Shown here: piece after piece, positions 2,259 to 20,427 of the stretch
How positions within the stretch are numbered: position 1 is the stretch's first letter
Layout: each line of letters starts with the position of its first letter
Origin: a virus
Reading direction: 5' to 3' (one strand)
Virus record (IMG/VR): IMGVR_UViG_3300046001_005512
Location: 1 to 20,427 of that record
DNA: 20,427 nt
Translations under genes and position numbers: made by a program
Notes under the pieces: generated by a model
Told to the model about the DNA's origin: nothing
Databases searched by the model: none
The model's input: only the letters and a program-made list of their open reading frames with translations

Positions 2259-4049
2259 TTATTGAGCAGCTACTGGAGCATTTGAAGTATTAGAAAATTC
2301 ATAATTACTATCTGCATTATTGGGTCCATTGGATAAAGCTATAAATCTTTCAGGTCCATAAGTTTCTGCAAAACCTTCACCATCAGTTCCAAAGGAATTA
2401 CCTTGAAGTCTTGGAATAAAGTTTTGAATTGGTGTAAAATTAAATCCTGTAACTCTAATAATTTGAGTTAATTCTTTTACAGTTCCATCTTCTGACCCTG
2501 GTGTTATTCCAATTCCTATTTCCCATGGACTATCTTCACTCATTTCATATGTTAATCCCGTTATAAAGCCAGGTTGTTCATATAAATAACCACCAATTGT
2601 TAATTGAACTAAATTACCTCTCATATAACCATTTGGACTGTAGTCTGGGGCTAATGTAGATGCAAGATAATTTAATTTTTTATACATTGGAATAAGTTCC
2701 TGTTTTGATTGAGCAGCAACGGTCCATGATAATGAAATTTGTCGAGTAAACCCACCATAAGTGTAGAAATTTTCACCTCTACCAAGATATTGAAAACTAT
2801 TCCATTGAGCATTATATGAATCTGATATAGGTCCTAAAAATGCTCTAAAATGCATAAATGTTTTAAAATTAGGAGCATCATTATCAATAACAGCAATTCT
2901 AAATTTTACAAAATCATTTATTACATCATCTGTAGATACATTTTGACTTCTATATATAGGTAATGAATTTATTTTATCTAAACCAAGAGAATAAGAACCT
3001 ATTTGAGGAATATCTCTATTACCATATGATACACCTTTAGAATAATCAGCATAGCTTTTATTTTGTCTTTGTCCTGGGTCTCCTATATTTACACGTTTTT
3101 CAAAATTTCCTGCATCTTGGTCTGAATAATTTAGTGAATAAGCTGTTGCTCCACTATCAGTAGCATTTTTGCCTTCTGTAGTACTAATACCTAGTTTTTC
3201 TCTTAATATTTTTCTAAAATCTTGAATTTTAGGAGAAGAAATACTACCTTGTGGTCCTGAACTTTGAGCTTCTGGTATTAAAGGAAGTAAGGGTGCTTGA
3301 TAATAAGGTGCAAATAAATCTTTAGAATTAAAAACCCAGTTACCTGTAGATTTACCAACAGTAAAATTATTATTTTTAGTTGGATTTGTTAAAAAAGTTC
3401 GAGATAACTTAGAATATTTTATAGCTGTGTTTCCTACTCCTAATAAAGAACCAGGACCACCTGTATAGGTCATCACATTAGTACCATTATTAAGTATTAC
3501 TCCTGTACCAAAAGGACGAGGAGTGCCTTCTAGGGGTGAAGTTGAAGTTACTTCATATAAATTAAATAATCTATTTTCAGATGGTGGTTTAAATTTATTT
3601 ACTTTAAAATCATATAAAGCATCGTTATTAGCATCTACTCCTGTTTCAGCAAATGGATTAAGACCTTGTTTATTTAAATGATAACCACCAGCTATTACAC
3701 CTGCTTGTGCTAATGTGTTTAATGGAGAATATATACCTTCGTTTAATGTACGACCACTAGTTTGAGTACGAACTGCTGTACGTGATAATAATTGTTGTTT
3801 AGCAATAAAAAGTAATCCGTTTGGAGACTTTGTATCAATAAACATTTTACCTAAACGTTTAATATCTGTGAGAGAATCTCTTACAGCATTTATTCCGCCT
3901 CGTAAAATAAAATCTTCATTAGCTCCTAAATCATTAAAGCTATCAGGTATTGGTGTTTGAATATAGGGTTGGCCACTATACCCTCCACCAAGGGTATCTT
4001 TCCCATATCTTAGGGACTTAAGATCAGTCTTTAAGTCAATTAACCCCAT
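2259..4049 (-). CDS. Tail tube cap / baseplate-like structural protein
   Basis: This is a 596-residue protein starting MGLIDLKTDLKSLRYG. The N-terminal 380 residues are Asn/Ser/Gly-rich, without a recognisable domain. Residues 385-520 look like a tube-fold domain: FRAFLGPISDSYNAQW, then FQYLGRGENFYTYGGFTRQI, ISLSWTVAAQSKQEL, LNYLASTLAPDYS and a GYMRGNLVQLTIGGY strand. This resembles the domain I associate with the T4 gp48/gp54 type, which terminates or starts the tail tube. Its start overlaps the stop of the preceding small gene as TAATG (4051-4047), so translation is probably coupled. Its location just after the tape measure matches the usual place of tube-initiator genes. Structural role is likely; the exact equivalence to gp48 or gp54 is tentative. 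Profile-profile comparison would be decisive. Confidence 0.65.
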   Translation of the reverse strand: MGLIDLKTDLKSLRYGKDTLGGGYSGQPYIQTPIPDSFNDLGANEDFILRGGINAVRDSLTDIKRLGKMFIDTKSPNGLLFIAKQQLLSRTAVRTQTSGRTLNEGIYSPLNTLAQAGVIAGGYHLNKQGLNPFAETGVDANNDALYDFKVNKFKPPSENRLFNLYEVTSTSPLEGTPRPFGTGVILNNGTNVMTYTGGPGSLLGVGNTAIKYSKLSRTFLTNPTKNNNFTVGKSTGNWVFNSKDLFAPYYQAPLLPLIPEAQSSGPQGSISSPKIQDFRKILREKLGISTTEGKNATDSGATAYSLNYSDQDAGNFEKRVNIGDPGQRQNKSYADYSKGVSYGNRDIPQIGSYSLGLDKINSLPIYRSQNVSTDDVINDFVKFRIAVIDNDAPNFKTFMHFRAFLGPISDSYNAQWNSFQYLGRGENFYTYGGFTRQISLSWTVAAQSKQELIPMYKKLNYLASTLAPDYSPNGYMRGNLVQLTIGGYLYEQPGFITGLTYEMSEDSPWEIGIGITPGSEDGTVKELTQIIRVTGFNFTPIQNFIPRLQGNSFGTDGEGFAETYGPERFIALSNGPNNADSNYEFSNTSNAPVAAQ

Positions 4050-4294
4050 TATTTAGGTGGATTATCCAAATATTTACTTGGTGTTTTTCCGTCTAAATCA
4101 AGTTGTGAGGTAGCTAATGATTTTTGATAATTAGAAACACCATCATATTGTAAAGGTGTTTTGCCATCTAAGTCTAATTGTGAGGCAGCTAAATCTTTTT
4201 GATAGTTTGAAGCACCATCATATTTTACTGGTGTTTTACCATCTAAATCAGTTAGTACTGAACCTGCTTTTGTTAATTTATCTAATAGTCCCAT
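4049..4294 (-). CDS. Small protein with 25-residue LDGKTP repeats
   Basis: This is an 81-residue protein made almost entirely of an internal repeat. LDGKTP occurs at residues 17-22, 42-47 and 67-72, exactly 25 residues apart, each followed by a YDG-SNYQK-type stretch (the third copy is truncated and ends in NPPK). The N-terminus MGLLDKLTKA resembles that of the next gene (MGLIDLKTD), which could mean a shared short signal for docking to the same partner. Its stop overlaps the next start by one base (TAATG), so both are probably made in fixed proportion. It begins 31 bases after the tape measure stop, where a candidate promoter motif lies. The function is unknown; its place between tape measure and baseplate genes suggests a small tail or assembly component. 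Confidence 0.7.
   Translation of the reverse strand: MGLLDKLTKAGSVLTDLDGKTPVKYDGASNYQKDLAASQLDLDGKTPLQYDGVSNYQKSLATSQLDLDGKTPSKYLDNPPK
4055..4246 (-). repeat. Three in-frame 75-bp coding repeats
   Basis: Two full copies and one partial copy of a 25-codon unit make up the small protein. Each copy starts with LDGKTP. The DNA copies have drifted at synonymous positions (the Lys-Thr-Pro codons differ between copies), so the repeat is old or held at protein level rather than freshly duplicated. Confidence 0.75.
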
Positions 4295-4312
4295 TGTTGT
4301 GTTATTTTTTAT

Positions 4313-4321
4313 TATAAATAT
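4313..4321 (-). promoter_or_regulatory. Candidate promoter motif ATATTTATA
   Basis: The exact nine-mer (TATAAATAT on the plus strand) lies 18 bases upstream of the small repeat gene, in one of the few real intergenic gaps. The same nine-mer occurs in four other gaps. Low sequence complexity makes the call tentative. Confidence 0.35.
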
Positions 4322-4325
4322 TAAA

Positions 4326-6896
4326 TTATTGAACTCTATATGTTCCTACATTCATTGCTGTACCTACTTTAGTAGCATCTAAATATACATTTCCTCCTGC
4401 TTTTACAGCAGCTACAAGTTCTCTAAGTAATGCTGTTACTTCTTCACTTCCACCACCCAAATTAGTACCACCCATTATAACATCACCTTTATTGGCTTTT
4501 ATAATTTGTTTTGAACCTGGGCGAATAATAAAATCATCGGCTTCTTCAGCATCTGCAAAGAAATTTTTATATGCTCCATATCCTGCTCCTAAAGCACCAC
4601 CAATTGCTGCTCCTGGAACTGCTCCTATTCCTCCAAAAAATGCACCAATTGTACCTCCTATTCCTGCTCCTGTTAAAGCTGAACTTCCTATATCTGTAGC
4701 TTTTCCAACATTTCTTGCTTTTGCTGCTGCTTCAAGTTGACCGGATTGTTCAAGTTCTTGGGCTTTTTCCATTTGGTTTTCAGTAGCATAATCTAATGCT
4801 GCACCACCAAGTAAAGAACCTACTCCACCAGCTAAACCCTTAGCTATTTTTAAACCAGTACCCCCCATTTTTAAAGCTCTCATATAAGCTTTAGGGTTTT
4901 TAAATAATGTTTTTGCTTGTTTAGCTAAAGAAGCTGGTTTTGCTCCTTTTCCTAATGAACCTGATGAACCTGATAAATCTGTATCACCTAAGCCACCTCC
5001 CCCACCGGCTACAATTACATGTAATGGTTTTAAGGCTGAACCATCCGGTTTCATTATGTTTTTTGCAAACATTGCTACTTTAAAAGCAACAAAACCAGCA
5101 AGTATTTTATCTAAATTAGGGATAACATATTTAGCTAATCCATCTGCAAGACCTGTTACAATTTTAGCAAATTTATCCATATTTTCAGGAGAGAAAAGAG
5201 ATTTTGCTAATGGTGCAAAGGCATTTGCTATACTTTCTTTAGCTTGTTCATAAGTTTTATTAAGTTCTTGAGCAGCTTTTTGTTGTTTAAGAGTATCATC
5301 TATACCTTTAGTTTTAAAAGCAGCAATTGCTTCTTCTCTACTAACACCTTTTTCCATTTCATATGCAATTGCTTTTTCAATAGATGCTTGATCTTTTCCT
5401 AATTTGTTTTGCAATTCCATAGATTCTTGCATTTGAAGTAATTCTTCTCTACTAAGACCTAAAGTTTTTGCAAATTGATCTTGTGCAATTACATTACCTT
5501 TGATTTTATCTTTGTTTTCAGTTATTAAACGCTGCATTTCTTTAGTCTGTGTTGTAACATCCCCTGTTAATGCTGCATATCTTAATTGTTCAAGATTTAA
5601 ATCTGTATTTAATAATAATTCTGATTGAATTTCATCAGCTATACTTTCTTCAAAATTTAAAGTATTTTCTGCTGCTTTTTGTATTTGGTCTAAAGAAGCT
5701 CCCATTTTAGCTGCTTCAATAGCTGCTTTTGTTAGTTCAGTAGTTGAACCTTTTAAATTTACTCTTATAGAAGCACTAGATGAGGTAATGTTTTTTAAAA
5801 CTTTATTTTCATTTACTGCGGCTTTATTTCTAACATTATATAAACCTGTTTGAACAGCTACATCTTTTGTTATATTTTCAAATTCAGTCCCATTTAATTG
5901 AGATATTCTATATAATTTAGAAGCTTCTTCACCTGAAAGACCTAAGTATGAAGTTAAATCAACATATGTTTTTAAATTCTTTTCGGATACACTAGCAAAA
6001 GTCCCAGTTTCATTATTTAAATCCGTGAAAGCTTTTTGTATTTCTTTTGAATTATAATACAAACCACCACTACTTGAAGCTATATCTCTAAAACTTTGTA
6101 CTAAATTATTAGCTTGTGAACCTATAGCTATAAAATTTCTTCCAGCATCAGCAACATCGTCTTTAAATGAAAAAGCTATTGTTTTTAAATAAGTAAAAGA
6201 TTTGCTTATTAAATTTACATAAATTAAAGGATCATTAAATGCTTGAAGTAATCCTTTACCTAATGATTTTGTAGCAGCACCTAATACTTTAAATTTACCT
6301 ACAATTCCTAAAGTATTTGTTTCTGATACACCTAATGCTTTTGCTTGTTCTACAGCTGATTGTCTAGCATCTTCAAATACATCATCTAAACCACTTAATC
6401 CTAATTTAGATGCTAATTTAGATGCTGCTGAAAGACCAGCACCTGATAGTCCTATACTTTTATTTATATTTTGAGAATAAGAAAGTTGTTTTTTTAATTC
6501 TTTTTCATATTCTTTATTTTGTTCAATAATTTTATCGTATTCTTTTTTTAATTTACTAGCATTTTTAACGCCATTAACTTCAGCAATTTCAATTGCTGTT
6601 TTTATTGCTGCTAATTTTGAATTTCTTTCTTGAATTTGACGAGTTATATCTCGTTGTTTTAATAATCCATTTGATGCTTTTTCGTTTGATGATGCTAAAT
6701 CTTTACTAATTTTACTTAAATTGTTAAGACCAGATTGAGCATCCTTAACCATATTTTTAGCTACATCTTCTCCTCTACTCAATGCTTCTTCAAAATAATC
6801 ACCTATTTTAGATGATATATTACGAAAAGCATCTTCAACTACTCTTGCAGTATCTTGTGCTTCTTTTTTAATTCTTTTTTCGTTATCTAAAGCCAT
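4326..6896 (-). CDS. Tail tape measure protein
   Basis: This is an 856-residue protein and the longest complete gene here. Residues 1-150 are a highly charged helix with heptad-like spacing. Residues 150-600 are mostly helical, Lys/Glu/Ala-rich and Gly-poor. From about 590 hydrophobic and Gly/Ala-rich segments appear, the clearest at about 735-780 (GAGIGGTIGAFFGGIGAVPG). These are typical of tape measures that end up in the host membrane. The C-terminus contains FIIRPGSKQIIKANKGDVIM and VYLDATKVGTAMN, a tail-tip type ending seen in many tape measures. The tape measure rule (about 0.15 nm per residue) predicts a tail near 130 nm. The gene follows a gp26-like gene with a frameshifted extension, the usual position just after tail assembly chaperones. 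Its start has no Shine-Dalgarno sequence; a hairpin and a promoter-like motif lie upstream. Confidence 0.9.
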   Translation of the reverse strand: MALDNEKRIKKEAQDTARVVEDAFRNISSKIGDYFEEALSRGEDVAKNMVKDAQSGLNNLSKISKDLASSNEKASNGLLKQRDITRQIQERNSKLAAIKTAIEIAEVNGVKNASKLKKEYDKIIEQNKEYEKELKKQLSYSQNINKSIGLSGAGLSAASKLASKLGLSGLDDVFEDARQSAVEQAKALGVSETNTLGIVGKFKVLGAATKSLGKGLLQAFNDPLIYVNLISKSFTYLKTIAFSFKDDVADAGRNFIAIGSQANNLVQSFRDIASSSGGLYYNSKEIQKAFTDLNNETGTFASVSEKNLKTYVDLTSYLGLSGEEASKLYRISQLNGTEFENITKDVAVQTGLYNVRNKAAVNENKVLKNITSSSASIRVNLKGSTTELTKAAIEAAKMGASLDQIQKAAENTLNFEESIADEIQSELLLNTDLNLEQLRYAALTGDVTTQTKEMQRLITENKDKIKGNVIAQDQFAKTLGLSREELLQMQESMELQNKLGKDQASIEKAIAYEMEKGVSREEAIAAFKTKGIDDTLKQQKAAQELNKTYEQAKESIANAFAPLAKSLFSPENMDKFAKIVTGLADGLAKYVIPNLDKILAGFVAFKVAMFAKNIMKPDGSALKPLHVIVAGGGGGLGDTDLSGSSGSLGKGAKPASLAKQAKTLFKNPKAYMRALKMGGTGLKIAKGLAGGVGSLLGGAALDYATENQMEKAQELEQSGQLEAAAKARNVGKATDIGSSALTGAGIGGTIGAFFGGIGAVPGAAIGGALGAGYGAYKNFFADAEEADDFIIRPGSKQIIKANKGDVIMGGTNLGGGSEEVTALLRELVAAVKAGGNVYLDATKVGTAMNVGTYRVQ

Positions 6897-8583: not shown

Positions 8584-10683
8584 TTACGCCGGGAAAACTG
8601 CTCCAGTTGGTAAAATGTTGAAATCCAAGTAAATGAATTCAGCAGTCTTAGTAGGTTGAATATAAATTTGACCTACCATCTGGTTTCTGTCGATTACGTC
8701 AGCGGTGTTGTTTGAGTCATCCATGATTACTTTAAAAGCATACAAACCTTGTCTTTGTTGTACTGATTCTAAGTATGGATTAACTTGACTTAAGAATTGG
8801 TTTCTTGTAGCAATACTGTTTTGTTCAAACACTAAGTTTTGAGCTACTTGAGAAATGTATCCTTTAAGTTGGATTAATAATCTACGAACGTTTACACGAT
8901 CTAAAGCAGATGCTTTAGTTTGTAATGTTTTCTGTCCGTATACTACAACTCCTGTTCCAGGGAATGTTGCAATTGGATTAACTTTGTTTTGATATAAAGT
9001 ATCGCGGTTTGTTTGAGATAATTTTTTCTCAGCTCTAACTACTGTACCTAATCCACCTCTGTTAATACCTGCTGGTGCAAACCAAGGTTCTGATACACTA
9101 TCGTTATAAGCGTAAACACCTGCTACCAATGTAGAAGCCGGTACCCAAATTAATTGAGCAGAATCTGGATCAATTGTTTGAACCCAAGGCCAATATGTTG
9201 CTGCGTATGAAGTATTTTTAGCGTTTGCTTGAGTAACTACATCATTAATGCTTGAACTAAATGGTACTAAATCTACTACATAAATAGCATCTCCTCTATT
9301 CATTGTATTATTAATTGCTGTGGTTACTTGTGATGAACCTAAATTTAAGGTTGGTGCAAATAAACCAGGAGTTAATAATACATTGTATTGATAATCATCA
9401 GCATTAGCCATTAAGTTAAGCATGTTAGTGTAATCACTACCTGTTAAACCTTGTGTATTTGTTGAAGCAACATCAATATTACTATTATAATCAGCAACAA
9501 TTCCAGTATTTAAAGTACCTGTAGCTCCTATAAATGAACCACTTGCGTTTGATGGGATTGATGATGTGTATTGAGATTTTGCTTGTCCATTGTTATCAAA
9601 ATAGAATGGAGTTGGTGTTAAAACACTAGATACATAAACATATCTTGAATTTGTTGGATAATCACCAATTACTTCAATTTGATTATCATCAACATTGTAT
9701 TGTTTATATTGGTTACCAATTAATCTAGCTACATAATTTGGTGCTGTTGGATCCATTGATAAGTTAGTCCAAGATTCTAATACAATAGGATTAGTTGAAT
9801 TATCATCTCCTTGACGGATTAATAAAGTAAATGTACCTGAACTTGTATCACGATTTTGGATTTGCCATCTGATATTATCAGCTGAACCTGAAGCTAATGA
9901 ACCACTTACATCTAATGAACTAGAACTATTCATAATAGCACCTTCCGAAATTGTTTTTAAAATTAAAGCTTCTGTATTTGTAGCTCCACTAAATAAAGTA
10001 GTAGTACTTCCAGATACAAAAGTATAAGCATTTAAAGTATCTGCTGAGAAAGTAGTTCCAATTTGTGAAGATGTTGTATTAAAGAATAAACCAGTAGATC
10101 CAGAAGCACTAGCAACAATGTATTGTAATGAAGAACTATATGGAGCTACAGAAGAACTAGCATTAAATGCTGCTACAATAGCTGTAACTGTATTTGCTGG
10201 TGTTGAACCTGAGGCTACAAATATTATTGTTGCTGTATTAGCAGGTGTTGTACTTCCAGTAACAGCAATTGTGATTCCATTAATTAAAAACGATCCCGTA
10301 GGAGTAATAAAAGGAGCTAAACTAGCACTACTAACAGTAACGGAGGCTGTTGTTGCTAAATTTGCATTAACAATAGGAGTTGAATCTGCAGAATCAAAAG
10401 TTCCACTTACTACTCTTGTTACTAATAATGTTTGACCACCATTGTTAAAATAGTTAAAAGCCGCTACTGAGGTAAAATAAGTATAAACTTGGCTAGCACT
10501 TAAAAAAGTTGTACCAAATTTGTTTTGATAATCGCTATATGAGCGAACAACTGTTGGAACTTCAACAGGACCTTTTACTGTTGGACCAACGATAGCTGCT
10601 CCAACGGTGATTGGTAGCGCGGAAACGAAAGAATTGTCATTTTCTAACGCTAATACACCCGGAGATATTAATGTTTCTGCCAT
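8584..10683 (-). CDS. Contractile tail sheath protein (T4 gp18-like)
   Basis: This is a 699-residue protein. The N-terminus (SPGVLALENDNSF, then VGAAIVGPTVKGPVEVP and a YSDYQNKFGT segment, residues 7-58) and the C-terminal domain (GINRGGLGTVVRAEKK, LNPxxTFPGTGVVVYGQKTL-type region, RVNVRRLLIQLKGYISQVAQ and the ending FIYLDFNILPTGAVFP) are those of phage sheath proteins. Sheath subunits surround the tube and contract to drive it into the host. Residues from about 93 to 240 form an insertion very rich in Ser, Thr, Ala and Gly, with the near-repeat GSTTPANTATIIFVASGS / GSTPANTVTAIVAAFNAS. By analogy with T4 gp18, whose inserted domains face outward, this would be surface exposed. Codon use is biased in the same way as in the tube gene. 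The gene is followed by the tube after 46 bases and preceded by a promoter-like motif. Confidence 0.93.
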   Translation of the reverse strand: MAETLISPGVLALENDNSFVSALPITVGAAIVGPTVKGPVEVPTVVRSYSDYQNKFGTTFLSASQVYTYFTSVAAFNYFNNGGQTLLVTRVVSGTFDSADSTPIVNANLATTASVTVSSASLAPFITPTGSFLINGITIAVTGSTTPANTATIIFVASGSTPANTVTAIVAAFNASSSVAPYSSSLQYIVASASGSTGLFFNTTSSQIGTTFSADTLNAYTFVSGSTTTLFSGATNTEALILKTISEGAIMNSSSSLDVSGSLASGSADNIRWQIQNRDTSSGTFTLLIRQGDDNSTNPIVLESWTNLSMDPTAPNYVARLIGNQYKQYNVDDNQIEVIGDYPTNSRYVYVSSVLTPTPFYFDNNGQAKSQYTSSIPSNASGSFIGATGTLNTGIVADYNSNIDVASTNTQGLTGSDYTNMLNLMANADDYQYNVLLTPGLFAPTLNLGSSQVTTAINNTMNRGDAIYVVDLVPFSSSINDVVTQANAKNTSYAATYWPWVQTIDPDSAQLIWVPASTLVAGVYAYNDSVSEPWFAPAGINRGGLGTVVRAEKKLSQTNRDTLYQNKVNPIATFPGTGVVVYGQKTLQTKASALDRVNVRRLLIQLKGYISQVAQNLVFEQNSIATRNQFLSQVNPYLESVQQRQGLYAFKVIMDDSNNTADVIDRNQMVGQIYIQPTKTAEFIYLDFNILPTGAVFPA

Positions 10684-10985: not shown

Positions 10986-12188
10986 TTAATAAATATATAG
11001 AAGTTTATTAATAGATTCAATCACTTGAGAAGGCTCAATAACTTTTGTGCACTCAAATTGACGTGGTGTATCTTTATGGTCAGGACACCATTCCCAATCA
11101 CCGGGATTTAACCATTGGCGATTAAAGCATCCTCTACATGTTTTAGGATCTTTAGGAAATAAACGTTCACAATCTTGAAATTCAGTATATGGATAACTAA
11201 ATCCTGAAATTAATATTGTAGGTGTATTTAATCCCCAACTTAACCAACTTAATCCACTGCCTAATCCAATAAATAAATCAGCATCTCTAATATCAACCAT
11301 TCTATCTTCTAAGGAAATATTAAATCCTGTTTTATCAATAACACCTGTTAATGTACCTCCTAATTTTGAATCATGCCACTCATCATTTAATGGTTCTGCT
11401 GTTAACATAACAACTTTATAACCTTTTTCATTTAAATAATCAATAATGGTTTGCCATCCACCTGGATGATTCCAATACTTAGCATGTGCTGAAGCATGAG
11501 GGGCTATAACAACGTATTTACCTTCAATATCAGTTTTATGTTCAGGGGTAATTAATTTTGGTTTTACCTCTCTATATTTCATTCCTAATATTTCAGTAGC
11601 GGTTTGTTGTAATGGATATTTTTTAAAGTCAATCGGTGTTCTATCATAAACAACCTTTTTATTATCATAAAACCATCCAATAGTAAACATACCATATAAA
11701 CCATGTACTTCTTCTCCAGGTTTAACAAATTTTAATTCAGGATAATTTCCTTCAAACCATTCATTATGGAACGTAGAACATACTACTTCACATTTATTTT
11801 CTTTCCTAAATTCATCAATTATAGGAAACCAAGCTAATGTATCTCCTAATGCTCCTGAATCTAAATGGATGTAAATTCTTTTACCTTCAGGTTCAAAATT
11901 ATGTTCTAAAATTTTAAATCCACTTTCTTTATCATATATCTCAATACGCCATTTAACTAAATACTTAATATTAGTACGAGTCCACATATTATTACTAATA
12001 GTGTTTTCAAATAAAACTCGGTTAGTTTTAGTGTTAATAAATTTTACTTGGTATGTTTTTTGTAGTGGTCCTAAAACTTCTACAAAAGCACCATCCATAA
12101 AATTTATGTTAAAAATATTTTCGGGTTTTTTGTGAGGTAATCCTAATATTTTAGTGTTACCATACTCGTTAATTAAAACTTCTTTCAT
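10986..12188 (-). CDS. TibC/Aah-like protein O-heptosyltransferase
   Basis: This is a 400-residue enzyme that resembles the autotransporter heptosyltransferase family (TibC, Aah). These are GT-B enzymes that move heptose from ADP-heptose to Ser/Thr residues of repetitive surface proteins. Residues 28-95 are a beta-rich N-terminal domain. The family's loop appears as HLDSGALGDTLAW (108-120), with Asp110 where I recall the catalytic Asp of TibC. The nucleotide-sugar half has APHASAHAKYWNHPGGWQ (229-246) and GLGSGLSWLSWGLNTPTILI (308-327). Four cysteines (C351, C354, C368, C380) in the context CRGC, EWCPDH, FEC match the iron finger of TibC. The start overlaps the stop of the GT4 gene as ATGA. 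No autotransporter is in the window; the nearest repetitive Ser/Thr-rich proteins are the fibre and the sheath insertion. Family membership is well supported; the sugar and acceptor are unknown. Confidence 0.85.
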   Translation of the reverse strand: MKEVLINEYGNTKILGLPHKKPENIFNINFMDGAFVEVLGPLQKTYQVKFINTKTNRVLFENTISNNMWTRTNIKYLVKWRIEIYDKESGFKILEHNFEPEGKRIYIHLDSGALGDTLAWFPIIDEFRKENKCEVVCSTFHNEWFEGNYPELKFVKPGEEVHGLYGMFTIGWFYDNKKVVYDRTPIDFKKYPLQQTATEILGMKYREVKPKLITPEHKTDIEGKYVVIAPHASAHAKYWNHPGGWQTIIDYLNEKGYKVVMLTAEPLNDEWHDSKLGGTLTGVIDKTGFNISLEDRMVDIRDADLFIGLGSGLSWLSWGLNTPTILISGFSYPYTEFQDCERLFPKDPKTCRGCFNRQWLNPGDWEWCPDHKDTPRQFECTKVIEPSQVIESINKLLYIY

Positions 12189-13126
12189 ATATTATTGTAT
12201 AATTCTATTAATTCTTTTGAGCGATTTAACCATGATAATTCTTGAGCAGTATTTAATGAACGTTGTCTATATTCATCATACTCATTTATAATAGTGTCTA
12301 AACCGCGTAACATTTCATTTAAATTTCTTGGTGCTCTCCATAACCCATGAAATGTTGTTTCCATTTCTATCCATCCTAAAATAGGTAAACCACAAGCTGC
12401 TGCCTCCAGTAATGTAAGATTAGGATGTCCAGCTTCCAAGTCTGATGGGTGAAGAAATATAGTGTGTGATGTGTAAAGTTGTCTTAATTGTTCGTTTGAA
12501 GGTTCCCAAATAATAGTTAATTTAGGATATCCTTTAACCCATGGATTATCATTAAGCCAATTTTCATTATTTTTAGGACCTGCAAGTGTGATTGGTAAAT
12601 TACGAGACATTGCTACTTGTACACCTAATCCAAATCCTTTTCTATCATATGAACCATAACCTCCTAATCCATTATTTGCTAACATTAACAAACTATGGTT
12701 TATAGGATATGTTTCGTTTGGATAAAATTTAGTTATGTCGGCTCCATGTGAAAAATAACATACTTTATCTGTATCAAAATAATCAACTAAATAACGAGCA
12801 GGTACTAATGAAAAAATAGATTTTTCCATTGCCTCTAAATTTTCCTTATACACAGATGAATCTTTACCATAATGAAAGGCGTGGTGGTCGTGATGTTGGA
12901 AGATATAAGGTACATCTCTATCAGCAAGAAATAAAGCTAAATTAGCTACATGAACCATTACTATATCATATTCACCTGGATAGATCTCAGCAGCATATTT
13001 AATATCTACTTCATGTCCTAATTCTCTAAGATTACAAGTAAGTTCCCATACGATTTTTTCTACAGCACCCCATGCTACTGGTGGTACTGGTATTCCGCAA
13101 CCTGGATGTACTTGACAAATTTTCAT
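12185..13126 (-). CDS. GT4-type glycosyltransferase
   Basis: This is a 313-residue GT-B fold enzyme. The N-terminus MKICQVHPGCGIPVPPVAWG shows the strand and Gly-rich loop of the acceptor half. VCYFSHGADITKFYPN (122-137) is the linker to the donor half. The donor half has YDRKGFGLGV (160-169), LAGPK (181-185) and the GT4 signature with two glutamates, EAGHPNLTLLEAAACGLPI (231-249). It is slightly short for the family but all main elements are present. It has no membrane segment, so it acts in the cytoplasm on a soluble donor. It overlaps both neighbours (TAATG before it, ATGA after it), so three glycosyltransferases are translated as a coupled unit and probably act in one pathway. Donor and acceptor cannot be read from the sequence. 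Confidence 0.85.
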   Translation of the reverse strand: MKICQVHPGCGIPVPPVAWGAVEKIVWELTCNLRELGHEVDIKYAAEIYPGEYDIVMVHVANLALFLADRDVPYIFQHHDHHAFHYGKDSSVYKENLEAMEKSIFSLVPARYLVDYFDTDKVCYFSHGADITKFYPNETYPINHSLLMLANNGLGGYGSYDRKGFGLGVQVAMSRNLPITLAGPKNNENWLNDNPWVKGYPKLTIIWEPSNEQLRQLYTSHTIFLHPSDLEAGHPNLTLLEAAACGLPILGWIEMETTFHGLWRAPRNLNEMLRGLDTIINEYDEYRQRSLNTAQELSWLNRSKELIELYNNI

Positions 13127-15114
13127 TATTTTGTTTCTAAATTTCCGTTTAATTGGATTTTATTATCTAAATAATCTTGATTAACTACAATAACTTTTTC
13201 ATTAAGAAATTTGTTATCAAAGGCATCATAAAATTTAAATCTAAATGTAACTTCTTTTCCCATAAATTGATATAATCTATACCAAGCAAATTTATGAGTA
13301 ATATCTATTTTTTCACTAAATGTTTCTATTCCTTCTTCTTCACCACTTACAATTAAAGTTCTATTATCTGATTCGTTTGAATTTTGATAATAAACAGCAA
13401 AGTGATTTTCTACATTAGAGGGTAAAACAGTTGTATATTCTACTCGAGAAAAATTATTATGTTTAAAATTTTCAGCAATTAACCAATCCCAATCTTCACT
13501 AGTTTCTATATGAATTTGGTTTCTAAATGGTTTTAAAGCAAAATGAAAAATATTTTCATATCCATTAGAAAAACTACCAACTTTGTTTTTTAAATTATCA
13601 TATTCGGTAGCAGTAGATACAAATTCGTGTGTTTTAAAGAAAAAATTAGTTTGTATACCAAAGAAAAATGTTGCACTTACCATTCCTTCAGGATATTCAC
13701 GTTCATCTACGTATGCTTTTTTCTTATTTAATATAGATGATATATCATTAATAAATTCGGGGTTAGTTAAAATGTAATCATAATTAGTAAAATATAATTT
13801 TTTAAATCCTATATTTTTTGCTAATGAAGCTGCATTATAATAATTTGTATAAACAGCAGGACCATGATATACATCATTATCTTCTCCTTGTAATAAAGTA
13901 TTTACTAAAAAATGTCCATAATCAACCCAACAATAATAATAAAAATCATGTTTAGTTAATAGGTTATTTTTATCATAAACACAGTAATCTACTAATTCTT
14001 GTAATTCTTGAGGAATGGGAACGTGTGAGGTTAATATAATTTTTCTACCTGTTTGTTTAAATGATTCAATACATTCTTTAGTTGAATCTATAATACTTTG
14101 TTGAACAGGGTATGTTGAAATAATTATTGCTTCTTGTTCCGGATAAATTTCTTCTTCTGTTTCTAAAATTTCTTTAATTAATTCACAATTATTTTCAAAA
14201 CTACTAAAATCAAGATAATCAACTGTATCAAATCTATCAAAATAGTTTTGGTATACTTCTAAATTATAAATTAATGTTGGGATTTGATGGGAAATTGCTT
14301 CACGAATAACTAAAGGCATTGTTTCTTTATCATTAGCTGAACCTCGTGATGTAAATAAAAATAAATCCATTGCCTGATAGAATTTATCTACATCTGTTCT
14401 TTCATCCCACCATGTTAAATTTGGGGGAGTATTTTGAGCTAATGGTTCCCAATACCATTTAAAATTATCTGCTCTATTACCTAAACTATGAAATTCATAT
14501 TCAGGAAACTGTCTAGCATAATCAAAAAATTCAGCTTGATTTTTACGAGAGGTGTATAACCCTACGTGTAAAATGTGTTTTTTAGTTGTATCTAGTTGTA
14601 ATTTACGCAATGCCTCTTCACGGTCGGGGCGTTTTATATATTCAATAGGATATTCAACTAATACGCGTGGAATGTCAATATCTTTATATTGGTCTATTTG
14701 CCAATTAGATACAAACATAAACTTATCTGGGAAGAATTTTTTCTGAGTAGTATCAAAGGATGAATCATGTGATGTTTCTACTATAATATATTTTCTTTTA
14801 GGATTATATAAAGCAGAAGCAACCTCAAAATCCATATAAAACTCAGGAATTTCCTCACTATGAACAATATCAGGTTGGATACGATTAACGATATCCATTA
14901 ATTCCATTTTGTTTTTACCTAATGTAAAAAAATTATTAGGTTTAACTAATTTTAAGATTTTGTTTTTTGTTACAACTAATCTACCACCAGTAACATCTGA
15001 CCATTCTATAAGATAAATTTCAAATTCATCTTTTAGTAGTTCTATTTTTTTAGTTAAATATTGGGGAAGACCACCTGTTGATAGATGGGGAGCAATATAC
15101 AACAATTTTTTCAT
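13126..15114 (-). CDS. Two-domain glycosyltransferase (GT4-like plus second domain)
   Basis: This is a 662-residue protein. Residues 1-320 form a GT-B glycosyltransferase: YIAPHLSTGGLPQYL at the N-terminus, HILHVGLYTSRKNQ near 180 and KETMPLVIREAISHQIPTL near 265, the GT4 donor-site region (one Glu is kept, the first is less clear). From about 330 a second domain begins with EAIIISTYPVQQSIIDSTKE and GRKIILTSHVPIP, the opening of a GT-A-like alpha/beta fold, as seen in other marine phage glycosyltransferases I recall. The last 100 residues are beta-rich (AWYRLYQFMGKEVTFRFKFY). The first gene of the glycosyltransferase cluster, it begins after a 59-base gap with a variant of the promoter-like motif, and its stop overlaps the next start (TAATG). 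Two catalytic domains in one chain would allow two successive sugar additions. The GT4 assignment is good; the second domain's activity is inferred. Confidence 0.75.
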   Translation of the reverse strand: MKKLLYIAPHLSTGGLPQYLTKKIELLKDEFEIYLIEWSDVTGGRLVVTKNKILKLVKPNNFFTLGKNKMELMDIVNRIQPDIVHSEEIPEFYMDFEVASALYNPKRKYIIVETSHDSSFDTTQKKFFPDKFMFVSNWQIDQYKDIDIPRVLVEYPIEYIKRPDREEALRKLQLDTTKKHILHVGLYTSRKNQAEFFDYARQFPEYEFHSLGNRADNFKWYWEPLAQNTPPNLTWWDERTDVDKFYQAMDLFLFTSRGSANDKETMPLVIREAISHQIPTLIYNLEVYQNYFDRFDTVDYLDFSSFENNCELIKEILETEEEIYPEQEAIIISTYPVQQSIIDSTKECIESFKQTGRKIILTSHVPIPQELQELVDYCVYDKNNLLTKHDFYYYCWVDYGHFLVNTLLQGEDNDVYHGPAVYTNYYNAASLAKNIGFKKLYFTNYDYILTNPEFINDISSILNKKKAYVDEREYPEGMVSATFFFGIQTNFFFKTHEFVSTATEYDNLKNKVGSFSNGYENIFHFALKPFRNQIHIETSEDWDWLIAENFKHNNFSRVEYTTVLPSNVENHFAVYYQNSNESDNRTLIVSGEEEGIETFSEKIDITHKFAWYRLYQFMGKEVTFRFKFYDAFDNKFLNEKVIVVNQDYLDNKIQLNGNLETK

Positions 15115-15173: not shown

Positions 15174-15848
15174 TTAACTACAAGTTATATCAAACTGAAG
15201 TCCTGTTGCTCCCATTCCTCCAAAAAAAGCAACATCTGCTGTACCATAAGTATTTGAGTCTAAAACATTAGGTGTAGGTCCAGCTGTTAAAGCTATTAAA
15301 TTAGCATAGTTAGTTCCATTAATATCAATAGTAACTGAACCACCTCCAAAATTAGGATCTGTAGAAACTTCAACTTGCCAATAAGCTCTAAAAATTATAG
15401 GAGTTGTAGCTTGGGAAATATCTGCATTGTAGTTTCCTCCACCAGCTAATAATATTCCACTATTACCTCCTACATAATTATAAGTAAAAGAACTATCAAA
15501 TAAATTCAATATTATTGATAAGTCATTATTTACAGGAGCAGGTTGAGCACTAATATTATTAGTAGCATTTAATACAATTTTAAAATTAGTTTGATCATAA
15601 AAATAAGTTAACCCATCAAAATCACCAACTTGAATATTTGTTGTTTTAGCAGTAGTATTATATATTCTATTATCTCCTGATGCTTCACCTTGGCCCCAAT
15701 TATTATCAGGTTCATTACTAGAACCATTAGGACCAGAAAAATATGAGAAAAAACTCATGGTGTTTAAGCTAAGGATACCTGAACCATAGGCTCCATTAGC
15801 TTCACTCCATATGTCACTAAATTTTACGTTTGTAGATGGAACTGCCAT
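15174..15848 (-). CDS. Probable virion protein, unknown function
   Basis: This is a 224-residue protein beginning MAVPSTNVKFSDIWSEANGA. It is rich in Asn, Gly, Ser, Thr and aromatic residues with few Lys or Arg, a composition typical of beta-structured fibre or receptor-contact proteins. Visible segments include FFSYFSGPNGSSN, NNWGQGEASGDNRIYN, a Gly-rich stretch GGNSGILLAGGGNYN and the ending FFGGMGATGLQFDITCS. It has no signal peptide or membrane helix. The gene starts 5 bases after the fibre stop, so both are probably made together, suggesting a fibre-tip, spike or fibre-associated protein. Its leader and first codons share 20 identical bases with those of the tail tube gene, including AAATAAATAAAATGGC. 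No domain is recognised, and the role is inferred from location and composition only. Confidence 0.7.
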   Translation of the reverse strand: MAVPSTNVKFSDIWSEANGAYGSGILSLNTMSFFSYFSGPNGSSNEPDNNWGQGEASGDNRIYNTTAKTTNIQVGDFDGLTYFYDQTNFKIVLNATNNISAQPAPVNNDLSIILNLFDSSFTYNYVGGNSGILLAGGGNYNADISQATTPIIFRAYWQVEVSTDPNFGGGSVTIDINGTNYANLIALTAGPTPNVLDSNTYGTADVAFFGGMGATGLQFDITCS

Positions 15849-15853
15849 TTTAT

Positions 15854-18800
15854 TTATTTAATTTGTTTTTTTAATTCTTCAACTTCTTTACTTAATTCTT
15901 TAATTGCTTCAATTAATAGAGCATTTAAGTTACCATATGCTACTGATTTCATTCCTGTTTTAGCATCTGTATTAACTACTTCTGGGAATACTAATTCTAC
16001 TTCTTGGGCAATTACACCTGCGTGTCTATCTTTATAATTTTCAGTATCATCAGTTCTTATAAATGTTACACCGTTAATTTGATTAATTTTATTAATAGCA
16101 TCTTCTACTATTTTAATATCACCTTTTACTCTTCTATCAGAGAATGCTTGGATATCATTTGATGCGTATATAGATACACCACTTACGTTTGCATTTACAT
16201 GGAATGGATAGCTAGGAGATGTTGTACTAAGACCTAATCTACTATTTGTAGTATCAGCATATAAGAACGATATACTTTGTATTGTTGCTGTACCTGTAGT
16301 TCTTACTAAATAGTCAGGTTGGTTTGTAAATGTACCACCACTAATACCTGAAGTACCATTAAATGATAAACCTGAGGTACCTGCTGAACCACTTGTACCT
16401 GAAGTACCGCTTGGAGCACTTGTTCCATTAGCACCACTAATACCTGTTGTACCTGATGTACCTGAAGAACCAGCTGTACCTGAAGTACCTGAAGTACCTG
16501 ATTGTCTTGATGTACCACCAGCTCCTGTTGTTCCTGCACTACCTGCTGTACCTGAAGTACCACTTGTTCCGCTTGTACCTGAAGTACCTGCTGTTCTGCT
16601 TGTACCACTAGTACCATTTGAACCTTCAGTACCTGATGTACCTGAAGTACCTGATGTTCCTGCTGTTCTACTTGAACCAGCAGTACCTACTGAACCTTGA
16701 GTACCTGATGTACCACTAGTACCTGAAGTTCCACTAGTTCCTGATACGTTACTGTTTCCGTTAGCACCTATTGTACCTGCGCTACCTGCTGTACCTGATG
16801 TACCACTAGTACCACTTGGACCAGAAGTTCCAGGAGCACCTGTAGCTCCGTTTGTTCCAGTTGAACCACTTGTACCTGAAGTACCTGATACATTACTTGT
16901 TCCTGAAGGACCTGCTGTACCATTTGAACCTGTAGAACCTGCTGTACCACTTGTGCCACTTGTACCTGATAAGTTACTATTTCCATTAGCACCAATTGTA
17001 CCTGAAGAACCTTGTGTTCCACTAGTTCCTGATGTACCTGATGCTCTTGATAAGCCTCCATTTCCTATAGTACCTGCTGAACCTTCAGTACCTGATGTAC
17101 CTGATGTACCTGATGCTCTTGATAAACCTGAGTTACCTGTAGTACCTGCTGAACCAGCTGTACCTGAAGTTCCTGATGTACCTGATACTTGGCTGTTTCC
17201 GTTAGCACCTATTGTTCCGCTTGAACCAGCTGTTCCTGAAGTTCCTGATGTACCTGAAGTACCTGAAACTTGTGAGTTTCCATTTGCACCTACTGTACCT
17301 GCTGAACCTGCTGTTCCGCTTGTACCTGATGTACCACTTGCGGCGCTTGCACCTGCAGGACCTGTTGTACCTGATGAACCAGTTGAACCACTTGTACCTG
17401 ATGTACCGCTTACATTACTTGTTCCTGAAGGACCAGCTGTACCATTAGATCCTGTAGAGCCTGAAGTTCCGCTTGTACCTGATATGTTACTTGTTCCACT
17501 AGGTCCTGCTGTACCATTAGATCCTGTAGATCCTGATGTACCTGAAGTGCCACTTGTACCTGAAGTTCTTGATGCACCTGAAGCTCCGTCAACACCATTT
17601 GTTCCTGATGAACCACTTGTTCCTGATGTACCAGCAGTTCTACTAGCTCCTGAAGCACCTACTGTACCTGATGAACCTGCTGTTCCTGAAGTACCACTTG
17701 TACCTGATACTTGGCTATTTCCGTTTGCACCAATAGTACCTGATGAACCGGCAGTACCTGATGTACCTGATGTACCACTTATGTTGCTTGTTCCGCTTGG
17801 GCCTGCTGTACCATTTGAACCTGTAGAACCACTTGTTCCACTAGTTCCAGATACATTGCTTGTTCCTGAAGGACCTGCAGTACCATTTGAACCTGTAGAA
17901 CCACTTGTTCCACTAGTTCCAGATACATTGCTATTTCCATTAGCGCCTATAGTACCGCTTGAACCTGCTGTACCTGAAGTACCGCTTGTGCCTGATACTC
18001 TGCTTGTACCACTAGTACCATTTGATCCTTCAGTACCTGAAGTACCACTTGTACCTGAAGTACCTGCTGTTCTACTAGTTCCTGATGTACCTATTGAACC
18101 TTGAGTTCCTGAAGTACCGCTAGTACCGCTAGTACCACTTGCTTGACTATTTCCATTAGCACCAATTGTTCCTGAAGAACCTGCTGTTCCTGAAGTACCA
18201 CTTGTTCCACTTATATTACTTGTTCCTGAAGGACCTGCTGTACCGTTTGAACCAGTTGAACCTGAAGTACCTGAAGTACCTGAAGTACCTGCTGTTCTGC
18301 TTGCACCTGCTGTACCATTTGAACCTGCACTACCTGCTGTTCCACTAGTTCCTGAAGTTGCACTTGCTCCACTAGCACCTGCATTACCACTTGTACCATT
18401 TGAGCCTGCTGAACCTGCTGTACCTGAAGTTCCTGATGTACCACTAGTACCTGAAACATTGCTATTTCCATTAGCACCAATAGTACCACTTGAACCCGCT
18501 GTTCCGCTTGTTCCGGAAGTACCTGATACTCTACTTGCACCACTTGTACCATTTGAGCCTTCTGTTCCTGATGTACCTGAAGTACCTGATGTTCCTGCTG
18601 TTCTACTTGAACCAGCAGTACCTACTGAACCTTGAGTACCTGATGTACCTGATGTTCCTGAAGTACCACTTACTTGACTATTTCCATTAGCACCTATAGT
18701 ACCACTTGAACCTGCAGTACCGCTAGTACCGCTTGTTCCTGATACGTTGCTTGTTCCGCTTGGACCGGCAGTACCATTTGAACCAGTAGAACCACTTGTT

Positions 18801-20427
18801 CCTGAAGTACCACTAGTTGCTCCAAATCCTGATGCGCCTGATGTTCCGTTAGAACCTGCACTACCGGCAGTACCGGAAGTTCCTGATGTACCGCTTGTAC
18901 CTGATGCTTTGCTTTGACCTGATGTACCAGCTGAACCTTCAGTTCCACTTGTTCCACTTGTTCCTGATGTGCCTGATGTTTTGCTAATTCCTGAAGTACC
19001 AGCTGAACCTTCTGTACCTGAAGTACCGCTTGTTCCTGAAGTACCTGCTGTTCTACTAGCACCTGATGAACCATTTGTTCCTGCGCTACCTGCTGTTCCG
19101 CTTGTTCCTGAAGTACCACTTGTTCCTGATACTTGGCTTACACCATTTGCACCAATTGTTCCTGAAGAACCTGCTGTTCCTGAAGTACCTGAAGTACCTG
19201 AAGCTGAACTAGAACCATTAGAACCAGTTGAACCACTTGTACCTGAAGTGCCACTTGTACCTGCTGTTCTACTTGCGCCTGCTGTACCTGCTGAACCAGC
19301 ACTACCTGCTGTTCCACTAGTTCCTGAAGTACCACTTACTTGTGAGTTTCCGTTTGCACCAATTGTTCCTGAAGAACCCGCTGTTCCACTTGTACCACTA
19401 GTACCACTTGCTGAGCTTGAACCACTAGTACCTGCTGAACCTGCTGTTCCGCTTGTTCCTGAAGTACCTGAAGTACCAGCTGTTTTACTTGTTCCTGATG
19501 TTCCAGCGCTACCTTCAGTACCGCTTGTTCCACTTGTTCCTGAAGTACCTGCTGTTCTGCTTGAACCTGCTGTACCTGCTGAACCAGCTGAACCGGCTGT
19601 TCCTGATGTACCTGATGTACCACTAACTTGTGAGTTTCCGTTTGCACCAATTGTACCACTTGAACCCGCTGTTCCACTAGTACCACTAGTACCACTTGCT
19701 AAACTTGAACCGCTAGTACCTGCTGAACCTTGAGTTCCACTTGTACCTGATGTTCCTGATGTTCCTGCGGCACCGGCAGCTCCGCTTGTACCTGCTGAAC
19801 CTGCAGTACCTGAAGTACCGCTTGTTCCACTAGTACCACTTACTTGTGAATTACCATTTGCTCCTATTGTTCCTGAAGAACCTGCTGTACCGCTTGTTCC
19901 ACTTGTACCTGAGACTCTACTTGTGCCTGAAGTTCCATTTGAACCTTCAGTACCTGAAGTACCGCTTGTACCACTTGTTCCAGCTGTTCTACTTAAACCT
20001 GCTGTACCTATTGAACCAGATGTTCCTGAAGTACCGCTTGTTCCACTAGTACCACTTGCTTGGCTATTTCCGTTAGCACCTATTGTACCTGAAGAACCTG
20101 CTGTTCCTGAAGTACCGCTAGTACCACTTACATTACTTGTTCCTGAAGGACCTGCTGTACCATTTGAACCAGTTGAACCACTTGTTCCTGAAGTACCGCT
20201 AGTTGCTCCAAATCCTGAAGCACCTGAAGTACCATTTGAACCTGCTGAACCGGATGTTCCACTTGTACCGCTTGTACCACTTGTACCTGATGCTTTACTT
20301 TGACCTGATGTACCCGCGCTACCTTCTGTACCTGAAGTACCTGAAGTACCGCTTGTACCAGCTGTTTTACTTAGACCTGAAGTTCCGGCTGAACCTTCAG
20401 TACCTGAAGTACCGCTTGTACCGCTTG
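15854..20427 (-). CDS. Collagen-like tail fibre with S74 chaperone domain (N-terminus outside window)
   Basis: The frame is open from the right edge to the TAA at 15856-15854: 1,523 residues, with the N-terminus missing. From the edge to about 16337 the protein is Gly-X-Y, mostly GTS, with GTA, GSS, GTN, GPS and GTE. It then reads GISGGTFTNQPDYLVRTTG and a shaft segment with RLGLSTTSPSYPFHV, and ends with an intramolecular chaperone domain of the S74 family. Such domains trimerise fibres and then cleave themselves off. The protein is therefore expected to be a trimeric fibre with a very long stalk; as a fully extended triple helix (0.286 nm per residue) 1,363 repeat residues would span about 390 nm, far more than the predicted tail. 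The stalk has few prolines, so a polyglycine-type or other fold is possible. It heads the visible operon. Gene and domains are clear; the contact partner is unknown. Confidence 0.93.
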   Translation of the reverse strand, partial: SGTSGTSGTEGSAGTSGLSKTAGTSGTSGTSGTEGSAGTSGQSKASGTSGTSGTSGTSGSAGSNGTSGASGFGATSGTSGTSGSTGSNGTAGPSGTSNVSGTSGTSGTAGSSGTIGANGNSQASGTSGTSGTSGTSGSIGTAGLSRTAGTSGTSGTSGTEGSNGTSGTSRVSGTSGTSGTAGSSGTIGANGNSQVSGTSGTSGTSGTAGSAGTSGAAGAAGTSGTSGTSGTQGSAGTSGSSLASGTSGTSGTAGSSGTIGANGNSQVSGTSGTSGTAGSAGSAGTAGSSRTAGTSGTSGTSGTEGSAGTSGTSKTAGTSGTSGTSGTAGSAGTSGSSSASGTSGTSGTAGSSGTIGANGNSQVSGTSGTSGTAGSAGSAGTAGASRTAGTSGTSGTSGSTGSNGSSSASGTSGTSGTAGSSGTIGANGVSQVSGTSGTSGTSGTAGSAGTNGSSGASRTAGTSGTSGTSGTEGSAGTSGISKTSGTSGTSGTSGTEGSAGTSGQSKASGTSGTSGTSGTAGSAGSNGTSGASGFGATSGTSGTSGSTGSNGTAGPSGTSNVSGTSGTSGTAGSSGTIGANGNSQVSGTSGTSGTSGTQGSVGTAGSSRTAGTSGTSGTSGTEGSNGTSGASRVSGTSGTSGTAGSSGTIGANGNSNVSGTSGTSGTSGTAGSAGSNGTSGNAGASGASATSGTSGTAGSAGSNGTAGASRTAGTSGTSGTSGSTGSNGTAGPSGTSNISGTSGTSGTAGSSGTIGANGNSQASGTSGTSGTSGTQGSIGTSGTSRTAGTSGTSGTSGTEGSNGTSGTSRVSGTSGTSGTAGSSGTIGANGNSNVSGTSGTSGSTGSNGTAGPSGTSNVSGTSGTSGSTGSNGTAGPSGTSNISGTSGTSGTAGSSGTIGANGNSQVSGTSGTSGTAGSSGTVGASGASRTAGTSGTSGSSGTNGVDGASGASRTSGTSGTSGTSGSTGSNGTAGPSGTSNISGTSGTSGSTGSNGTAGPSGTSNVSGTSGTSGSTGSSGTTGPAGASAASGTSGTSGTAGSAGTVGANGNSQVSGTSGTSGTSGTAGSSGTIGANGNSQVSGTSGTSGTAGSAGTTGNSGLSRASGTSGTSGTEGSAGTIGNGGLSRASGTSGTSGTQGSSGTIGANGNSNLSGTSGTSGTAGSTGSNGTAGPSGTSNVSGTSGTSGSTGTNGATGAPGTSGPSGTSGTSGTAGSAGTIGANGNSNVSGTSGTSGTSGTSGTQGSVGTAGSSRTAGTSGTSGTSGTEGSNGTSGTSRTAGTSGTSGTSGTSGTAGSAGTTGAGGTSRQSGTSGTSGTAGSSGTSGTTGISGANGTSAPSGTSGTSGSAGTSGLSFNGTSGISGGTFTNQPDYLVRTTGTATIQSISFLYADTTNSRLGLSTTSPSYPFHVNANVSGVSIYASNDIQAFSDRRVKGDIKIVEDAINKINQINGVTFIRTDDTENYKDRHAGVIAQEVELVFPEVVNTDAKTGMKSVAYGNLNALLIEAIKELSKEVEELKKQIK
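15857..16141 (-). other. S74 intramolecular chaperone domain of the fibre
   Basis: This is the last 95 residues of the fibre. The junction reads NDIQAFSDRRVKGDIKIVED; the Ser of SDRR (codon 16141-16139) is the expected self-cleavage nucleophile. RHAGVIAQEVELVFPEVV and GMKSVAYGNLNALLIEAIKE follow, both family hallmarks, and the chain ends in a Leu/Glu/Lys coiled coil. Known relatives fold the fibre trimer and are then released. Confidence 0.92.
17808..17932 (-). repeat. Recent 72-bp tandem duplication in the fibre array
   Basis: Bases 17808-17860 and 17880-17932 are identical over 53 bp at an offset of exactly 72 bp, one 24-residue unit. Elsewhere the units differ at many synonymous sites, so this pair is probably one of the youngest duplications in the array. 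Confidence 0.75.
20132..20427 (-). repeat. Second copy of a fibre array segment (first copy 18746-19041)
   Basis: The order of interruption types here (Asn, Ala with GFGATSG, Lys, Lys) and their spacings (72, 90, 72 bp) match exactly those starting at 18746, 1,386 bp away. The rare GFGATSG stretch occurs only in these two places. The segment runs to the window edge, so its full length is unknown. Confidence 0.7.

Follow-up and report, generated by a model that had tools for sequence, protein, structure and literature searches.

The collagen-like fibre protein encoded in the window, by which we mean the whole analysed stretch of 20,427 nucleotides, is built from a 24-residue module of eight Gly-X-Y triplets, in which slots 5–8 form a conserved node and the eighth Gly is usually replaced by Ala, Asn, Arg, Gln, Ser or Lys. 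We tentatively read the shaft, with a probability of roughly 45%, as a proline-free, probably glycosylated, trimeric Gly-X-Y rod with regular nodes, carried on the fibre of a contractile-tailed phage of Flavobacteriia.

The fibre ORF (15854..20425, minus strand) encodes 1523 residues in the window and overruns the window end, so that its 5′ end and the N-terminus of the protein lie outside. Its Gly-X-Y array (16355..20422, minus strand), with a non-Gly residue at slot 8 of its 24-residue modules, extends past the window and matched PF01391 with E=1.7e-128. The Gly-X-Y phase is constant, without a frame slip, across 452 triplets (1,356 residues), and the longest perfect run consists of nine successive 24-residue modules, or 216 residues (17561..18208, minus strand). 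Long ORFs on the plus strand at 16953-18104, 18969-19733 and 19923-20303 (VPLVPDVPD type) are antisense mirrors of this array and not genes.

A conserved junction, NGTSGISGG (16316..16354, minus strand), lies between the array and the head region, which contains a C-terminal Peptidase_S74 intramolecular chaperone domain (PF13884; 15974..16141, minus strand; E=6.8e-14). Profile matches of the S74 region were PDB 6f45 (gp37 of phage S16), 7dc3 (MyRF) and 8jov (a tail fibre). Alignment with seven relatives identified SDRRVK (16124..16141, minus strand) as the self-cleavage signature S-D-x-R-x-K, whose Ser, Asp, Arg and Lys are invariant among the seven. The solved S74 relative, gp37 of phage S16 (PDB 6f45), is homotrimeric (PMC6851490). 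By analogy with these relatives, the S74 chaperone at the fibre C-terminus probably holds a homotrimer together and cleaves itself during folding.

When the array was parsed in the Gly frame, 52-53 of the 452 triplets lacked Gly. About 12% of the Gly positions were thus replaced, at a fixed spacing of 8 triplets. Exactly 8 triplets (72 bp) separated successive non-Gly triplets in 36 of 52 steps, and the hand count of 36 in 50 given in a first-pass annotation of this DNA was accurate. The remaining steps were of 9 triplets (six cases), 10 (four), 7 (two), 16 (two) and 11 (one), with a final step of 6. In 20,000 trials of random placement, spacings of 8 never numbered more than 10, and a stricter null model, with spacings of at least 6 and an unchanged total, gave at most 22. 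Autocorrelation, which the annotation had proposed as the check, peaked at lags of 8, 16 and 24 triplets (5.9x, 5.0x and 3.9x) and had no signal at lags 1–5; the 24-residue peak is common to the homologues. The residues at the replaced site (Arg, Asn, Gln, Lys or Ala, rarely Ser or Leu) and after it (Val, Thr, Ala or Ile, then Ser or Ala) were those annotated. The steps of double length are present as well, as the two steps of 16 triplets, but they are not lost units: in the window and in the relative L003 the module runs on through them with Gly merely kept in slot 8, as GAA or GPS. The phase of the annotated register of Gly replacement is real, but the replacement is only one feature of a module with slot-specific X and Y residues.

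An average profile of 674 units, drawn from 28 array sets, defined these residues. In slots 1–4, X was Thr or Ser and Y mostly Ser, Asn or Thr. Slot 5 had Ala at Y (64%) and T/N/A/V/I at X, and slot 7 had A/L at X and Ser at Y (96%). The node triplet (slot 8) was A/R/N/Q/S/K followed by T/L/V and then S, and GTS came next. Counted over the node contexts, the Y residue just before the replacement was Ser in 90%. The extra triplets of 9-triplet units fell mostly in slots 4–6 and rarely in slots 7–8. Ser and Thr made up 69.5% of X and Y residues pooled over the transferase-linked arrays. Pro occupied only 1.3% of X and Y positions in the window and 0.2% in the pool, compared with 15.7% in chromosomal Flavobacteriaceae arrays. 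The array is about 30% Gly and has no long Gly runs, and its node segment is conserved.

A charge coupling was also seen. All nine Glu residues at position -10 in the window preceded Lys or Arg (9/0 against 13/31, p=1e-4), a sharper link than the one annotated, and the coupling of Glu at -10 to a basic node held in 26 of 26 cases in the window and L003 together (17/17 in L003). An acidic residue (D/E) at -7 was coupled to a basic node in 25 of 25 cases in L039, L053, L088 and L102, and mostly in L084 and L107. In L004, L065 and L072 a few acidic residues occur with no basic node. L109 is an exception in that its acidic and basic modules alternate: at 3440-5716, a module with a basic node (GLV..RTS) alternates with one that has an acidic slot 5 and a neutral node (GAD..ATS/STS). 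A ladder test for like residues in successive nodes gave weak and inconsistent results (z -2.9 to 2.5).

Nine close fibre relatives came from a search with the S74 region; a neighbouring 313-residue transferase, used as the query, matched at least 168 viral stretches, of which the best 80 of 168 were retained. The strongest lag was 8 triplets in 27 of 30 array pieces (29 proteins on related viral contigs), with secondary peaks at 16 and 24 and lag-8 z-scores up to 18.8; the phages behind these 27 pieces are related to each other and therefore not fully independent. Their module sequences differ widely, for example GTSGTSGTAGSSGTIGANGNSQVS in the window, GTSGSGGSNGTTGAAGSSGSSNTS in L004 and GTSGSTGSNGSSGNAGNSGASALS in L007. 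In some lineages an additional replacement splits the module into 2+6, and the sum stays 8. About 10-18% of Gly positions were replaced. As judged from these sequences, the 24-residue spacing is kept by dozens of related viruses despite their differing modules. A complete fibre relative, L027+L007 (contig G006:C1, ~14647-28633), has 4,660 residues, about 4,380 of them in Gly-X-Y, and its array is among the longest met in this analysis. A DNA-level search of isolate phages with array units returned only the arrays of LR756501/3 (735 kb) at useful coverage; at the protein level the units matched nothing there, probably owing to the low-complexity filter, and no cultured relative turned up in the isolate collection.

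The 24-residue period is deeper than the Gly loss, because it persists in X and Y where Gly is kept: 97 uninterrupted triplets in L010 (z 11.4) and 59 in L007 (z 8.6) have it. Uninterrupted stretches at 2019-3746 in L010 and 3202-7305 in L067 also have a weaker 12-residue sub-period (lags 4, 12 and 20 triplets). By contrast, the X/Y autocorrelation was flat in L062 and in phage LR756501 (735 kb), whose GTS arrays reach 308 triplets with no replacement. L115-L117 combine an S74 domain with T/S-rich Gly-X-Y without interruptions, and the GTS arrays of L032 are likewise uninterrupted; together with L171 and L180 these served as controls, all uninterrupted or nearly so. Since such uninterrupted arrays exist in related S74 fibres (L115-L117) and in L032, the Gly-X-Y rod seems to be the common base. 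Gly-X-Y matches occurred in 93 of 399 Flavobacteriaceae genomes. Bacterial chromosomes were rejected as the source of the array, as the best matches inspected had few or no interruptions and many Pro, Gln and charged residues, with phage-like contigs such as L195 as exceptions. No Gly-X-Y array was found in the 45 kb scanned of Flavobacterium phage immuto.

The residues that replace Gly are not those expected from mutation. Among >1,500 isolated replacements, Ala made up 31%, Asn 17%, Arg 16%, Gln 13%, Ser 10%, Thr 5% and Lys 3%, and Val, Asp and Glu together only 2.8%. One-base changes of the Gly codons in the window would give 17% Val, 12% Asp and 5% Glu, and no Asn, Gln, Thr or Lys; these four, unreachable from Gly by one base change, account for about 37% of the replacements. 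The spacing nulls and this spectrum rule out random Gly decay, as the annotation had argued from the phase. For window modules that agree pairwise at 22 or more of the 24 residues, codon sharing was 0.531, compared with 0.506 for random codon choice; in relatives with at least 20 such pairs it was 0.52-0.59 compared with 0.44-0.51, slightly over random. This codon identity rules out recent duplication of 72 bp of DNA as the cause. Because near-identical modules have near-random synonymous codons, the amino-acid pattern has been held while synonymous sites turned over.

Directly downstream of the fibre gene lies orf224 (224 residues; 15174..15848, minus strand), which has no family match and is the fastest-varying gene of an otherwise conserved cluster (25-57% identity, often undetectable). 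It is a candidate fibre tip or adhesin by its position, which is like that of gene 38 in T4 and S16; in T-even phages the adhesin gene 38 stands behind gene 37. Three glycosyltransferase genes follow, all on the minus strand: one of 662 aa (13126..15114) and one of 400 aa (10986..12188) were assigned to Glycos_transf_1 and Glyco_transf_9, respectively, by family search, and the 313-aa gene between them (12185..13126) is GT4-like, with Pfam scores just under the curated cut-offs. Every one of the 29 scanned loci had this cassette, and one of the transferases had served to find most of them. It is a reasonable inference that the adjoining transferases decorate the fibre. The three transferases recur in unchanged order in LR756501, located away from its GTS arrays: the intact cassette is at L033 10166-15923, and the GTS and GP-type Gly-X-Y arrays of this megaphage lie elsewhere, without periodic interruption. 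For the T/S-rich arrays of L115-L117, no transferase was found on their contigs, which are fragments.

Past orf224 and the transferases, the gene order (sheath, tube, hub, tape-measure) is compatible with that of immuto, and the tail sheath (8584..10683, minus strand) is 47% identical over its full length to the immuto sheath. On this similarity, the cluster belongs to a contractile-tailed phage related to Immutovirus (T4-type). The host is probably a flavobacterium, since a transferase was also found in two flavobacterial metagenome bins (Winogradskyella and Flavobacteriales). Elsewhere in the window (4080-4250), a 75-bp tandem repeat of 2.3 copies, within an 81-residue ORF at 4049-4294, encodes LDGKTPLQYDGVSNYQKSLATSQ-type units.

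In the reading that we prefer, the triple-helical state of the array is an assumption. The S74 domain would bring three chains together in register and then cut itself off. Seven intact triplets (~6 nm) would form a proline-free collagen-type triple-helical rod, which may be stabilised by sugars on Thr and Ser, added by the neighbouring transferases. The node would open the helix locally, at the same level in all three chains, resulting in a bendable shaft like beads on a rod. Nodes would align only with the chains in register, and slipped chains would have three times as many breaks. The charge of a basic node would be offset by the acidic residue coupled to it. In support of this reading are the constant Gly-X-Y phase, the PF01391 match, the S74 domain and its cleavage motif with a homotrimeric relative, the register across relatives, the near-random synonymous codons, the non-mutational replacement spectrum and the conserved node context; T/S at about 70% of X and Y and the constant three-transferase cassette are consistent with a glycosylated shaft. 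A GQG break in mannan-binding lectin bends the triple helix by up to 85 degrees (PMC9898670). Two of the roles that the annotation had proposed for the replaced position, a bend and a registration mark for the chains, may both apply. A charged stripe fits some lineages, but neutral A/N/Q/S/T residues dominate the replaced slot (~76%) and Arg and Lys make up about 19%; a metal site found no support.

Other points count against a triple helix. By what is known of collagen stability, low Pro and 10-18% of Gly replaced, often by Arg, Gln or Asn, should destroy a conventional one. There is no intrinsic reason in it for exactly 8 triplets, or for a period in X and Y with intact Gly. At 0.286 nm per residue, the window array would extend to about 0.39 µm and the L007 relative to about 1.25 µm, which is very long for a phage fibre.

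A serious rival, somewhat less probable, is that the array is not a triple helix but a compact repeat fold that completes one turn per 24-residue module, such as a solenoid or a polyglycine-II/PPII sandwich. Slot 8 would be a short beta strand or turn with the former Gly site facing solvent, where polar residues are welcome. At 0.48 nm per turn, the window array would be about 27 nm and the L007 relative about 88 nm long, and lengths of 27-90 nm are sensible for a fibre. Such a fold would give a natural account of a spacing of 8 with 7, 9 and 10 tolerated, of indels in slots 4–6 that are rare in 7–8, of the X/Y period without Gly loss, and of the near absence of Pro. In the sole array model, a monomer of nine modules, strands rather than a rod were predicted, at residues 21-26, 45-50 and so on to 189-194, every 24 residues exactly, at S-x-T-S-G-T, and a polar residue (22) alternates with T/V/L (23) at the strand. 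However, the confidence of this model was low (pLDDT 48, pTM 0.48), and AlphaFold2 is prone to draw solenoids for tandem repeats. A structure search of PDB and BFVD with the array model gave nothing significant. Since the weak best matches included a Synechococcus phage fibre and a collagen-like protein of a giant virus, other Gly-X-Y chains may come out of AlphaFold2 looking much the same. Thin alignments limit the predictions, as the C-terminal model reached a pLDDT of only 33 though S74 is a known fold. The absence of a strong ladder effect between adjacent units also argues against a compact fold, and the strict one-in-three Gly and the period-free 300-triplet GTS arrays fit a continuous rod better. 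The fixed spacing, the lack of Pro, the tolerance of Arg, Asn and Gln at the Gly site and the lengths favour a 24-residue fold; the strict one-in-three Gly, the uninterrupted relatives and the trimeric S74 head favour the triple helix. That the arrays only resemble collagen, with packed PPII/PGII segments in a fold repeating every 24 residues and the replaced Gly marking an outward strand or turn, seems to us doubtful on balance, if worth serious attention.

Two further explanations are unlikely. In one, an ordinary triple helix would bear the period as a surface code, with hydrophobic and charged bands every 6.9 nm for the lateral, in-register association of fibres with one another or with the host surface, likened to the D-period of collagen fibrils. 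The Ala, Leu and Val of slots 5–8 against the Thr and Ser of slots 1–4, the tendency of acidic residues at -7 or -10 to accompany a basic node, and the alternation in L109 are consistent with such bands. About one third of the steps are not 8, however, so that a long-range period drifts, and the replacement of Gly itself is left unexplained. Just as improbable is that the three neighbouring glycosyltransferases are guided by the module, as a signal for recognition or spacing, with a sugar at or near the N/Q/R-T-S node. The cassette accompanied every interrupted array checked for it, S-x-T/V-S is kept at the node, and N-x-S is frequent; but Ala or Arg often occupies the node, the transferase-linked loci L061-L063 and L106 have few or no interruptions, and LR756501 combines an intact cassette with GTS arrays that are essentially uninterrupted. 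The sugar site proposed in the annotation has indirect support only, from the three transferases near the fibre gene, and because a megaphage with the same cassette has uninterrupted GTS arrays, sugar addition does not explain the interruption. An N-glycosylation sequon (N-x-S) was rejected as a separate candidate: it is frequent in some lineages, yet Ala, Arg and Gln nodes are equally common. It is very improbable that the register is a functionless relic of 72-bp DNA units copied in tandem, even though tandem repeats of 72 bp and 288 bp can be detected in places: synonymous codons match random expectation in the window and come near it in relatives, and the spacing outlasts complete turnover of the module sequence among relatives.

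Gly replacement is regarded as the textbook route to breaking a collagen helix. In this virus family it is fixed about every 24 residues over shafts of 1,250-4,400 residues with almost no Pro, under clear selection. If the shaft is a triple helix, it is stable, regularly jointed and proline-free, and would be useful for the theory of collagen stability and for designed flexible fibres. If it has a different fold, a widespread type of fibre has been mislabelled as 'collagen-like'; with a 24-residue fold, many 'collagen-like' proteins of Bacteroidota phages would form a new fibre class. A sequence search also returned a solved fibril with GAPGSQGAPGLQ repeats (PDB 8zxl / 9ius, 'spindlefibril | axialfibril', 45 chains), a possible structural reference for long Gly-X-Y fibres.

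Collagen IV, mannan-binding lectin and C1q are like the window array in having breaks in the Gly-X-Y pattern. Their breaks are few or irregular and their helices rich in Pro, whereas the substitutions in the window array are in phase and at fixed spacing. BclA has GPT repeats with Pro and is not known to replace Gly; it is a spore surface protein, while the window protein is a phage fibre with glycosyltransferase genes nearby. The glycosylated bacterial collagens of the BclA type have Thr-rich Gly-X-Y, and their sugar is thought to be stabilising (PMC8968730). The polyglycine-II adhesin gp38 of Salmonella phage S16 has a domain that exceeds 50% Gly, in which hypervariable loops separate long Gly runs (PMC6851490). 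Like the snow-flea antifreeze protein, it is made of Gly-rich PPII-type helices, and in this the window array would resemble it; the array differs in having one Gly in three, no Gly runs and a conserved node. Closer to the window fibre are EPclA-D of E. coli prophages, phage fibre proteins with a Gly-X-Y domain that were demonstrated to be trimeric (PMC3368898). Compared with typical PF01391 proteins, the interruptions of the window array are not merely sporadic and its X and Y positions are not rich in Pro. Collagen-like S74 phage tail fibres (PF01391 with PF13884; PHROG 5073, 6320 and 1806) have the same Gly-X-Y array, tail-fibre location and self-cleaving C-terminus, but those examined as controls are uninterrupted or nearly so, whereas the window fibre has a conserved 24-residue module with one Gly replaced. 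Among open-access papers, we found none that describes Gly replaced at a regular spacing in collagen-like fibres of phages. The comparison points to an undescribed repeat unit for collagen-like proteins, in a fibre that is a variant of the collagen-like phage fibres with a real chance of a different fold.
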